Shown here: positions 1 to 32,086 of the stretch, one piece after another
How positions within the stretch are numbered: the stretch's first letter is position 1
Layout of the letters: every line of letters begins with the position of its first letter
Assembly (NCBI GenBank): GCA_021803945.1
Contig: JAJZKW010000011.1
Location: 1-41,095, forward strand
Origin: Microcaldota archaeon
GTDB lineage: Archaea > Micrarchaeota > Micrarchaeia > Micrarchaeales > CABMGC01
Length of the DNA stretch: 41,095 nucleotides
Reading direction: 5' to 3'
Position numbers and translations under genes: made by a program
Notes under the pieces: generated by a model
What the model saw: the letters and a program-made list of their open reading frames with translations, nothing else
The model's database searches: none
Told to the model about the DNA's origin: nothing

Positions 1-2003
1 CAGGTCCCGAGTTGGGACAGTGGAAGAATCGTTACGCCCTTCATGCAAGTCACCTATTAAGTGACGAGGTATTACGCTACCTAAAGAGAGTCAGAGTTAC
101 TCCCGCTCTTTGCTAGGGCTTAGTCCCATTGAATTGGGTTTTCGCTGACTAGCGGTGAGCAGGCGTCACCCACTGTACAAAGCCTTACGGCTGTGCGGTG
201 AGTTGTGTTTTTGATAAACAGTCGTTCTTCCCTTGATAATGCTATCTGCGCTTACTAAGCGCAGACATGGCTTGTAGATAACATACGCCACTATTTTGCC
301 GATTTCCCTAACCCGGGTTCCCCTGACACCCCTTGGCTTTTTCAGCCAGCAGCACCTGTACTGGATCTAGGTACGGATCAATGCGATCGTTGCGGATTCC
401 CTTTTCACTGGCTCAAGAATTCAGGCATTGTCAGTTCATTTAGCTGCTTCTCCTCATAATGAGACTCCGCAGCCATTTGTACCTGTTTGCAGCCCTATCC
501 TCAAGCTTCAGAAATCCGCCTTGTGTTGCCACGCCTACGCACTGAGTGTCTGGATATTAACAGACTTCCCTTTTGCGCACGAGTAATTGGCTGTGCGCTT
601 AGGATCGACTAACTCCCAGCTGACGATCATTGCAAGGAAAACCTTGTGCTTCCGGGGAATGGGATTCTCACCCATTTATGCTGTTACTAATACCAGGATT
701 TTCTCTGCTGCACAGTCCACTTGAGCGCAGGCCCAAGCTTCTAGCCGTGCAGCACGCCCCCCTACCCACTATTTGATAGTGCCGAGGTTTCGGTACTTGG
801 TTTAGCCCCGTCCATCTTCGGAGAGCAATATCTCAATCGGTACGCTATGACGCGTTTTTTAAAGGGTGGCTGCTTCTGAGCCTACCTCCCGACTGTCTAA
901 GACACTGCCGTCCTTTGATACACTCAACCAAAATTTAGGGACCTTAACCTCGGATACTGCCTTTACAGCATCGCGACGCTAGCTTACCCAACGTCGCCGA
1001 CTCCCAGAGTCTACGCAGAACACGCATTCGGAGTTTGAGAGGAAAGCAGCCCCTTTCGGAGCTAGACTTCCCAATCGGTAGCTCTACCTCGTGTTCGAGC
1101 TCGTCTGAGGCTATCCTAAAGATACTTCGGAGGGGACCCGCTATTGCCATGTTCGAATGGTCTATCGCCCCTACCCGCAGCTCACCCAACAGGACATGCC
1201 ATGACAGGTTGCGGACCTCCATCGAGTGTAAACCCGACTTCGTCCTAGCCGCGCGTAGATCACAATGGCTTCGGGTCGAATTGCAGTGACTTGAGGCATT
1301 TTCATGCCCAGCACCTCATTGCTTGCGTGCTCTCGCTTTCACTTCGCTGTTAAGCTCGCCACTGCAATGCACTCCCTGGCTCTTGCTTCGAGAAGAATGA
1401 TGAAACACTGGTCCAAGTCCATCGCTCATGGCTTACGCCATTTCGCTTCTGGTCCCTTCATTCCTTTCATGCCTCACCTTCTCGTAACCACCTAGTTTCA
1501 GATCTATTTCAATCCCACGCGTGTGGGTTCTTTTCAGCTTTCGTTCGCACTACTTGTTCGCTATCGGTCTCTAGTCAATATTTAGGGTTGGGGTTTAATG
1601 CCCCGTATTCGTCCGGCATAATAAAGTCGGACTACTCTCATGCTACAAGACTCACTCTGCTTAGCCTACGAGGCTGTCACTCTCTTTGGCAATTCTTTCC
1701 AGAACATTCGGCAGGCATCATGAGTTCTAAAGTAGCCCCACATCTCATTCATTTCGCAATGAATGATTCAGTTCGCCCTCTTCCGGTTTCACTCGTGTTA
1801 CTTACGGAATCGCATAAGCTTTCTTCTCCTGCGTGTACTAAGATATTTCAATTCCACGCGTGCGCTCACGCCTCTATTCAAGGCGTACATCTCGGAAATC
1901 CCAAGTTCAAAGGCTGACTTGCGCCTACCTTGGGCTTATCGCAGCTTGCCACGTCCTTCTTCGCTACCAGAGCCAAGCCATCCCCTAGGTGGCTTAAAAA
2001 ATT
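1..2003 (-). rRNA. 23S ribosomal RNA, 3' part cut by the window edge
   Basis: Reverse complement contains archaeal/eukaryal-type LSU signatures (GAGTAACTCTGACTCTCTTTAGGTAGCG...CCTCGTCACTTAATAGGTGAC near the window start; CCTAGGGGATGGCTTGGCTC...GAAGGACGTGGCAAGCTGCGATAAGCCC at the 5' end near 2000). The 5' boundary is approximate. Confidence 0.95.
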
Positions 2004-16370: not shown

Positions 16371-16468
16371 TGCAGGGAGAGAGATTTGTTCAGATTTTTT
16401 GAACTCCCGCAGGCCTAAGCCAACAGATCTTGAGTCTGCCGCGTTTGACCGGGCTCCGCCATCCCTGC
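16371..16468 (-). tRNA. tRNA-Leu(CAA) with a 13-nt intron in the T-loop (16386-16398)
   Basis: GCAGGGA/TCCCTGC acceptor, GCAGA-CTCAAGA-TCTGT anticodon arm, long variable arm; T-arm read as GGGAGTTCAA[AAAATCTGAACAA]ATCTCTC. Confidence 0.93.
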
Positions 16469-18947: not shown

Positions 18948-19607
18948 CTACCGCTTCCTGAGTACCACGAAGAGGTGCATCCTGTCATAAGGCTCGATGT
19001 CTATCTTCTCCATGACATCGAATCTTGACGAGACCGAATCGAGGAAGCCCTTGAATACGTCTTCAGGTCTCTTTCCCACGTCTATGCTCTGGGACTTTAT
19101 TGCCACATATGCATATCCACCTTTCTTAAGGAGTTCGGCGTTCCTAAGCAATATTGCATCCTGATCCTTTGCTGCGACGTCCTGATATATCACGTCTGCG
19201 ACTCCTACGTCCTCTGCGTAGTCGCCTGCATTCCTTGCATCCTTGAGTATTGGCAGGATATTATGGCGCTTGTCGCATATCTTTATCAGGTCCCTCATGC
19301 TCCTTTCCGATATCTCTATGCAGTACACTGAACCGCTGGCTCCTACTATGTCGCTGACGTGGCTTGCCGTTGTCCCTGTAGATGCGCCAAGGTAGAGCAC
19401 GTTTGAGCCCTTCTTTATGGCCATTGTCTTTAAGCCATTGAGTATTGCGGCTGCCAGCTTGCTCCTGTATGGGTTCCACGATCTGTACTCTGTCCCGTCA
19501 TCAGGCATGAGGTCCTCGCCGTAGACCCTCGATCCGGGCGCGAGGTTCACTGTGGCTAACCTGCCGTCTATCTGGTAAATGCCTGCAAAAAGCCTCTTCA
19601 CTTTCAT
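18948..19607 (-). CDS. flpA: fibrillarin-like rRNA/tRNA 2'-O-methyltransferase
   Basis: EYRSWNPYRSKLAAAILNGL, VLYLGASTGTTASHVSDIVG, VYCIEISERSMRDL, VIYQDVA, YVAIKSQSID. Confidence 0.95.
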   Translation of the reverse strand: MKVKRLFAGIYQIDGRLATVNLAPGSRVYGEDLMPDDGTEYRSWNPYRSKLAAAILNGLKTMAIKKGSNVLYLGASTGTTASHVSDIVGASGSVYCIEISERSMRDLIKICDKRHNILPILKDARNAGDYAEDVGVADVIYQDVAAKDQDAILLRNAELLKKGGYAYVAIKSQSIDVGKRPEDVFKGFLDSVSSRFDVMEKIDIEPYDRMHLFVVLRKR

Positions 19608-27218: not shown

Positions 27219-27964
27219 AGCTTGGGAAGGATTTTGAGATTGTTGGCGGGCTGCCGATCCTTTACGTGAAGAGGTTGGACGCCATCGTATGCTCTGACCT
27301 CCACCTGGGATATGAGGGCGTGATGGCTGGAAGAGGAGCTTTCCTGCCAAAGGTGAACCTGAGTAGAATAAAGGGTATGCTCAAGCAAGCTGTTGAAAAG
27401 ACAGGAGCAGGGCGCATAATAATAGACGGCGACATAAAGAATGAGTTTTCAAAAGTGCATCTCGAAGAGTTCAATGAGCTAAGGGAGATGGTGGACTTCG
27501 TGCGCGAAGAGTTGGATGTGAAAAGGATAACCTTGGTGAAGGGGAATCACGATAACTTCGTTGACAGGATAAAAGGCAGGCTCGGAATAGAAATATTCGA
27601 GTCCGAAGCGCTGCTTGGTGGCATGCTCTTCTTCCATGGGGAGGGATTGCCTGAGGCCAAGGGATATAGCTCGATGGTAATGGGGCATGTTCACCCCGCC
27701 ATAGCGATTTATAATGGGCTGGGAGTCAAGGAGAAGTTTCATTGCTTCCTGTACGGGAAGACAAGGAAGGGCTCGGCTGAAGCTATAGTCCTTCCTGCAA
27801 TGAACTATTTTGCAGAAGGAGTGGCTGTGAACCTGGAGGATGTGAAAGGGATGGCTCCGGTATTCAGGTCTATTATTGACATTAGGAGGATGAGAGCCAT
27901 ATGCATTGGAGAAGGCGAGGCGCTTGATTTCGGCACCGTAGAGCAGCTCTCGAAGCTGAAATAA
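27215..27964 (+). CDS. Lhr-linked metallophosphoesterase
   Basis: CSDLHLGYEG, IIDGDIKNEF, LVKGNHDNF, MVMGHVHPAI; ATGA overlap with lhr. Confidence 0.88.
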   Translation: MKLGKDFEIVGGLPILYVKRLDAIVCSDLHLGYEGVMAGRGAFLPKVNLSRIKGMLKQAVEKTGAGRIIIDGDIKNEFSKVHLEEFNELREMVDFVREELDVKRITLVKGNHDNFVDRIKGRLGIEIFESEALLGGMLFFHGEGLPEAKGYSSMVMGHVHPAIAIYNGLGVKEKFHCFLYGKTRKGSAEAIVLPAMNYFAEGVAVNLEDVKGMAPVFRSIIDIRRMRAICIGEGEALDFGTVEQLSKLK

Positions 27965-28693: not shown

Positions 28694-28758
28694 GGCTAAC
28701 ACATAACATCCTTTATGCAGCAAATGTATTTAATTGTTTGAATGGAATGCATAACCGT

Positions 28759-28831
28759 AGTCCCATCGTCTAGCGGCCAAGGACCACGGGCTTTGGACCC
28801 GTGTACGCCAGTTCGAATCTGGCTGGGACTA
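28759..28831 (+). tRNA. tRNA-Gln(UUG)
   Basis: AGTCCCA/TGGGACT acceptor, ACGGG-CTTTGGA-CCCGT anticodon arm, GCCAG-TTCGAAT-CTGGC T-arm. Confidence 0.95.
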
Positions 28832-28886
28832 ATACCATATCATTGCTCTGCAGGCATACGATTTAATACTGTTGGGCTCAAATTGA

Positions 28887-28945
28887 GCTGTATGATGAGA
28901 TGAGGTATTTCTGAATAGTGATGAAAAAGAGAGTCTCTGACACCT
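28887..28945 (+). ncRNA. box C/D sRNA, dual guide predicted to target 23S rRNA
   Basis: C ATGATGA (28892-28898), 12-nt guide, D' CTGA (28911-28914), 3 nt, C' GTGATGA (28918-28924), 12-nt guide, D CTGA (28937-28940); both guides complementary to 23S in this window. Confidence 0.93.
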
Positions 28946-28955
28946 TTGTTTGCGC

Positions 28956-30386
28956 TTAGTATGACCTTGCGAAGTTTGCGGAAAACTCGGATTCCTTTCC
29001 GCAATAGATGCACTTGGCGCTGCGCTTCTCCTGGTCAAAAGGCATATTTGTTATCTTTGTTCCGTTCTCTTCCTTTATCCTGCGTTCACATTCGGAGTTT
29101 CCGCACCACGGGGCGGTTATCATCCCCCCTTTTTCATTTATGGCTTTCTTGAATTCGTCGTATGTATTGACAACGGTAATATGCGAGTTCATGAAGTCAA
29201 GCGCCTTGTTATACAGGTTCTGGTGTATCTGCTCCATTAGCGAGCTTACTTCTGATACGACTCTTTCGATGCTTGCCTGCGATTTCTCTCCGGTGTCCCT
29301 CCTTGCGATCGTCACGGAATTTGCCGCAATGTCCCTCTCGCCTATCTCTATCCTTATAGGGATCCCCTTCATCTCCCATTCATTGAACTTGAAACCTGGC
29401 GAATGGCCCTGCCTTCCGTCCAGTTTGACCCTGAAGGTGCCCTTCAAGCTATCAAAAACGTTCTTTGAATAGGCATCGACCTTCTCCTGGTTATCCTTTT
29501 TGTATATGGGGATTATCACTACCTGTATATACGCAACCTTTGGCGGTATGACTAATCCTTTGTCGTCTCCGTGAGTCGCGACCATGACTCCTATCTCCCT
29601 GGTTGTTATCGCGAACGTATTCTGGTAGACGTGCCTTACCTTGCCTTCAGTATCGAGGAATTTTATATCGAACGCCTTTGCAAAATTCTGCCCGTCATTG
29701 TGGAAGTCCGGACCTTGGATAGCCCAGCCGTCAGGCATGATGTGTTCTATGCTGTAGCTTGCAACTGCTCCAGCAAACTTCTCATTGTCGCTCTTCCGCC
29801 CAGGTATCCCAGGAAGCGCAAGGTAGTCCTTCAGGAAGCTTTTGTATATTCCGAGTATCTGGTCCCTTTCGGCAATGGCTTCCTCCTCTGTTGCAAATGC
29901 CGTATGCCCCTCGTTCCATAGGAACTCCCTTGACCGGATAAATGGCGTTGGGTGCTTGAACTCCCATCTCAGCACGTTGTTCCACTGATTGTACCTCAGT
30001 GGCAGGTCCCTCCACGACCTTATCCACTTTGAATAACTCTTGTACATTATGGTTTCCGATGTGGGTCTTATTGCGAGCCTTTCCTCGAGCTTTGTATTGC
30101 CCGTTTCGGTGACCCATGCGACTTCAGGGGTAAATCCCTCGAAGTGCTCTTCTTCCTTCTTGAGGAGCTTTTCCGGTATGAGAAGCGGGAAGTACGTGTC
30201 TTCTATGCCTATCTTCTTGAATTCTGCATCTATTATGGCCATTGTCCTCTGCCATATGAAGTAGGACTGGGGGAGGAAGACTATAGAGCCGGATACATCG
30301 CTGTAATCAACGAATCCGGTCCTTATAATGACCTGTGTGTACCATTCTGAGAAATTTTCCGCCTTCTTCGCATCTATCTGCTCCAC
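28956..30386 (-). CDS. proS: prolyl-tRNA synthetase (archaeal/eukaryal type)
   Basis: FSEWYTQVIIRTGFVDYSDVSGSIVFLPQSYFIWQ, RPTSETIMYKSYSKWIRSWRDLPLRYNQWNNVLRWE, TAPWCGNSECERRIKEE. Confidence 0.96.
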   Translation of the reverse strand: MEQIDAKKAENFSEWYTQVIIRTGFVDYSDVSGSIVFLPQSYFIWQRTMAIIDAEFKKIGIEDTYFPLLIPEKLLKKEEEHFEGFTPEVAWVTETGNTKLEERLAIRPTSETIMYKSYSKWIRSWRDLPLRYNQWNNVLRWEFKHPTPFIRSREFLWNEGHTAFATEEEAIAERDQILGIYKSFLKDYLALPGIPGRKSDNEKFAGAVASYSIEHIMPDGWAIQGPDFHNDGQNFAKAFDIKFLDTEGKVRHVYQNTFAITTREIGVMVATHGDDKGLVIPPKVAYIQVVIIPIYKKDNQEKVDAYSKNVFDSLKGTFRVKLDGRQGHSPGFKFNEWEMKGIPIRIEIGERDIAANSVTIARRDTGEKSQASIERVVSEVSSLMEQIHQNLYNKALDFMNSHITVVNTYDEFKKAINEKGGMITAPWCGNSECERRIKEENGTKITNMPFDQEKRSAKCIYCGKESEFSANFARSY

Positions 30387-31942: not shown

Positions 31943-32086
31943 GGGGTTGTGGCGTAACTTGGCAGCGCGGCAGGCTCCAGATGTTTAACCAAATAAATGA
32001 GCATTGTGCGATGATTAGGATTTGGAGCTATGATTTTGTGAAATGGGCGTTACCTGCATGTCCGGGTTCAAATCCCGGCAACCCCA
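31943..32086 (+). tRNA. tRNA-Trp(CCA) with a 71-nt intron at 37/38 (31981-32051)
   Basis: GGGGTTG/CAACCCC acceptor, GCAGG-CTCCAG...A-CCTGC anticodon arm, CCGGG-TTCAAAT-CCCGG T-arm. Confidence 0.92.

Follow-up and report, generated by a model that had tools for sequence, protein, structure and literature searches.

A predicted dual-guide box C/D sRNA for the helix 69-71 region of 23S rRNA, retained across an order of Micrarchaeota-type archaea

The window analysed here, a stretch of 41,095 nt, possesses at 28892-28940 on the forward strand a 49-nt element (C box to D box) which is very probably a genuine dual-guide box C/D sRNA of the archaeal type, its predicted function being the 2′-O-methylation of 23S rRNA at the equivalents of E. 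coli nucleotides 1940 and 1921. This kind of sRNA is well known, but the evolutionary support for the present member is unusually strong: it is retained throughout an order of Micrarchaeota-type archaea, and changes in its target are compensated in its guide. No papers mentioning fibrillarin in such archaea were found in the literature searched.

The sRNA locus and its 23S rRNA targets

The ordered boxes C (RUGAUGA), D′ (CUGA), C′ and D (CUGA) that define archaeal box C/D sRNAs can be read directly at this locus. Box C (ATGATGA, 28892-28898), of which only the first base varies among orthologs, is followed by guide 1, the D′ guide (GATGAGGTATTT, 28899-28910), an invariant D′ box (CTGA, 28911-28914), a spacer (ATA, 28915-28917), a near-invariant C′ box (GTGATGA, 28918-28924), guide 2, the D guide (AAAAGAGAGTCT, 28925-28936) and an invariant D box (CTGA, 28937-28940), all on the forward strand. 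The resulting spacing of 12/3/12 nt agrees with the guides of ~10-12 nt and short spacer of archaeal box C/D sRNAs. An earlier sequence-only reading had described these perfect boxes and both 12-nt intervals (C to D′ and C′ to D) correctly, while the span it gave to the sRNA, 28887-28945, encloses the core with five further nucleotides on each side. The same 28892-28940 is the single match in the window (54.8 bits) to R1, a sequence-only model built from 59 orthologs whose scores are biased towards its own members. No terminal stem is apparent, and the free sRNA folds no better than its shuffles (z +1.1), as is expected for a C/D sRNA lacking such a stem. The upstream neighbour is tRNA-Gln(TTG) (28758-28832, forward strand), and on the other side a prolyl-tRNA synthetase gene (28956-30386, reverse strand) faces the sRNA with its 3′ end.

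Beside D′ and D, where a guide of this class has complementarity to rRNA or tRNA, both guides form 10-11 pairs with the archaeal 23S (LSU) rRNA encoded at 1-2009 on the reverse strand. Guide 1 pairs with window positions 63-73 (11 pairs, one of them G-U) and guide 2 with 83-92 (10 pairs), and in each duplex the nucleotide touching the D′ or D box is unpaired. Both matches had been proposed before, as had the sites predicted from them by the N+5 rule, and all were recovered: an rRNA A opposite window position 70 for guide 1 and an rRNA U opposite 89 for guide 2, 19 nt apart and corresponding to nucleotides 1940 and 1921, respectively, of E. coli 23S rRNA. These equivalences come from aligning the two rRNAs across the helix 69-71 region, where no gaps were needed, the numbering being anchored on the known modified uridines 1911, 1915 and 1917 of E. 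coli; a raw count was not used, since the E. coli copy is annotated in shortened form. Both predicted sites fall in the segment around helix 69-71, which is part of the subunit interface and has been described as a predicted methylation and guide hotspot (PMC4644070). The lengths of both duplexes fit the 8-10 bp at which the highest methylation was reported for an archaeal enzyme (PMC7089733).

Conservation and covariation across the order

BLAST found the sRNA in most genomes of the order, and orthologs scored by R1, with the bias mentioned, were detected in about 117 of its 165 genomes (E-value ≤ 1e-8). A number of genomes of the order have no R1 match, many of these being incomplete assemblies, and there are a few matches in other families of the class. 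When named genomes were scanned with the exact pattern, matches fell almost only in Micrarchaeota, including Ca. Micrarchaeum sp. A_DKE (ortholog at about 27903-27951 of NZ_CP060530) and Ca. Mancarchaeum, which places the host among Micrarchaeota-type archaea; a match in Macrococcus was taken as chance.

Among orthologs, guide 1 is 12-14 nt long, the spacer mostly 3 nt and guide 2 10-14 nt. The two guides differ in constraint, with the reservation that the 109 distinct sequences compared were gathered via guide 1, so that counts made on them favour it. The 3′ end of guide 1 is AGGTATTT in 101 of the 109, and almost every genome keeps its exact register with respect to D′. The spacer between D′ and C′ is 3 nt in 99, its sequence being variable. 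Guide 2 retains AGAGTC in 84, in 21 of which the D box lies a single nucleotide farther from it, and in about 25 of the 109 guide 2 is changed or replaced. Ca. Micrarchaeum sp. A_DKE has the shifted register, so that under the N+5 rule its second predicted site would be the adjoining C. In a few sequences, genus g7 among them, it reads (T/A)ATTACGC, which matches 23S rRNA at window positions 70-78 and so overlaps the target of guide 1. Since guide 1 is near-invariant while guide 2 is shifted or replaced, the former is taken, on this sequence comparison, as the core, constrained function of the sRNA, and guide 2 as one that may shift or be exchanged; the second predicted methylation site is therefore safer for the genus than for the order. 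Loss of the boxes or guides in close relatives, named earlier as an outcome that would speak against an sRNA, was not seen, the boxes and guide 1 being near-invariant throughout the order.

Guide and target also covary. The sRNA and its 23S target were retrieved together for 43 genomes, although for one of these (G012) the target segment was a wrong one. Two genomes, G060 of genus g30 and G137 of genus g50, have ACCUUGUC in place of ACCUCGUC in the rRNA and ACAAGG in place of ACGAGG in the guide. Because G055, which is congeneric with G060, keeps the usual guide-target pair, these two compensated changes in separate genera look independent.

One competing explanation would be that boxes and short complementary stretches have met by chance in intergenic DNA without any gene. 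The window holds a single instance of the C/D′/C′/D pattern, against none in 300 windows simulated with a Markov-1 model. When 20,000 random pairs of 12-mers were drawn from the window, the first member had a 10-bp match to 23S rRNA in 250 cases, and in a single case did both members match within 40 nt of one another. Absence from the simulated windows and the many orthologs found by R1 contradict a chance origin; near-zero matches to reversed patterns in the strict C/D scans, conservation with compensatory changes across the order and an upstream TATA-like peak leave it only a very small probability. A different proposal, that the sRNA is chiefly an rRNA folding chaperone, with both guides holding on to helix 69-71 while assembly proceeds and with methylation secondary or limited to a single site, would account for the binding of two guides within 30 nt on one stretch of rRNA and for the behaviour of guide 2, which by shifting one nucleotide or moving to an adjacent 23S segment keeps regional pairing and not the exact nucleotide. 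Such a role has been proposed for some archaeal C/D sRNAs (PMC4644070). The published cases, however, join distant sequences and not neighbouring ones, and the near-universal exactness of the guide 1 register is what site-specific methylation requires, so the chaperone proposal is considered improbable and a methylation guide remains the preferred interpretation.

Expression and protein machinery

The upstream regions of 113 distinct orthologs show a peak in A+T content of 0.80-0.91 at positions -29 to -24 from the C box. In the window a TATA-like element (TTTAATA, 28862-28868, forward strand) lies 24-30 nt before the C box, its putative function being based on this peak. The peak suggests that the sRNA has a promoter of its own, from which transcription would begin at the C box or immediately ahead of it. 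In six model archaea, a TATA-like motif was reported at only ~20% of C/D sRNA genes (PMC7994747). The tRNA-Gln and the sRNA are often on the same strand, with the sRNA downstream by a few nucleotides to several kb (e.g., loci L021, L049, and L104), and several of the same 8-kb loci also contain tRNA-Trp. In genus g2 the sRNA begins a few nucleotides past the end of the tRNA-Gln, probably as a dicistron, an arrangement like the tRNA-sRNA dicistrons of Nanoarchaeum equitans (PMC3491384). A compulsory dicistron as the general case was rejected, as in most relatives the two genes are hundreds to thousands of nucleotides apart and the TATA-like peak is present.

The proteins required, L7Ae, Nop5 and fibrillarin, are all encoded in the host genome. 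The fibrillarin gene flpA, the RNP methyltransferase, lies within the window as had been noted before (18948-19607, reverse strand; PF01269, 263.7 bits, E-value about 1e-78), while the Nop5 gene is on contig C5 and two L7Ae-family genes are on contig C19. In the mechanism proposed, the gene's own promoter would account for most transcription of an sRNA of about 50-60 nt, L7Ae would bind the C/D and C′/D′ motifs of this sRNA, and Nop5 and fibrillarin would join. The fifth guide nucleotide before D′ would face the A corresponding to 1940, and that before D the U corresponding to 1921, and this A and this U would be 2′-O-methylated.

An apparently small guide set and the closest known sRNAs

Strict scanning of the 0.9 Mb host genome for the C/D pattern gave two loci, relatives having mostly one or two, and reversed-pattern controls gave near zero. 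Only these two among the 77 host C...D stretches listed have proper internal boxes, in a scan whose scope was genes with intact terminal C and D boxes. Within that scope the idea that the host conceals a larger set was rejected, the next candidates needing three box mismatches.

In the second canonical C/D sRNA, L178 (G000:C23:4696-4744, reverse strand, strict pattern), the D guide GATCTTGAGTG does not vary between relatives, and the D′ guide drifts. The D guide can form a 10-nt pairing with the tRNA-Leu(CAA) anticodon loop which puts C34 at N+5, and C34 is its predicted target; a C/D guide for this nucleotide has already been predicted in other archaea (PMC7668247; PMC7994747). The exact C′-guide-D motif of L178 is present in 125 of 303 genomes of the phylum, with no control matches. 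The sRNA ends a few nucleotides short of the start codon (ATG) of a small ORF, for which histone-fold matches were weak and below cut-off. At the tRNA-Leu(CAA) guide locus of G065 (C11:417316-417368) and G035 (C31:95122-95174), two overlapping tandem strict matches share a box and may be alternative D′/C′ readings of one RNA. The tRNA-Leu(CAA) gene itself (16371-16468, reverse strand) was missed by ARAGORN; in the Rfam alignment its T arm carries an insertion of ~14 nt, perhaps a small non-canonical intron.

A third guide could be borne by the 71-nt intron of tRNA-Trp (31943-32086, forward strand), in which the C/D-like boxes are degenerate and the anticodon is faced by TTTGGAGC, features conserved in several relatives. 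This could be an intron-borne C34 guide, as in other archaea, or simply an exon-intron helix at the splice site, and because of it the two host C/D sRNAs are a lower bound. We lean slightly towards the view that the whole order keeps a full C/D machinery for a near-minimal set of guides, namely those for helix 69-71 and C34 of tRNA-Leu(CAA) and perhaps that of the tRNA-Trp intron. If true, this set would mark the few 2′-O-methyl sites still worth guiding in a reduced genome. The findings raise the question of which guided methylations of rRNA and of tRNA are indispensable.

No Rfam family matched the helix 69-71 sRNA at its gathering score, and in that sense its earlier description as unannotated stands. 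The top-ranked, weak matches are archaeal C/D families. The best of these, sR2 (RF01139), matches over the full length through its boxes, with 37.4 bits against a cut-off of 42; its guides, and so its targets, differ, and membership was rejected, as it was for snoPyro_CD (RF00095; 27.3 against 45 bits) and for sR9 (below cut-off). Box order and spacing are thus like those of the archaeal dual-guide sRNAs of the sR families and snoPyro_CD, whereas the guides are its own. Double-guide sRNAs commonly target nearby sites (PMC7994747), and likewise the two 23S sites predicted here are close together. Like the C/D sRNAs of N. equitans, which also has a reduced DPANN-type genome, the sRNA is compact and without a terminal stem, and some of the N. 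equitans genes similarly lie directly downstream of a tRNA (PMC3491384). That archaeon, however, is hyperthermophilic and has 26 C/D sRNAs, Methanococcus maripaludis having seven (PMC7994747), whereas strict scans here mostly gave one or two per genome, and the one to three guides apparent here are fewer than in either.
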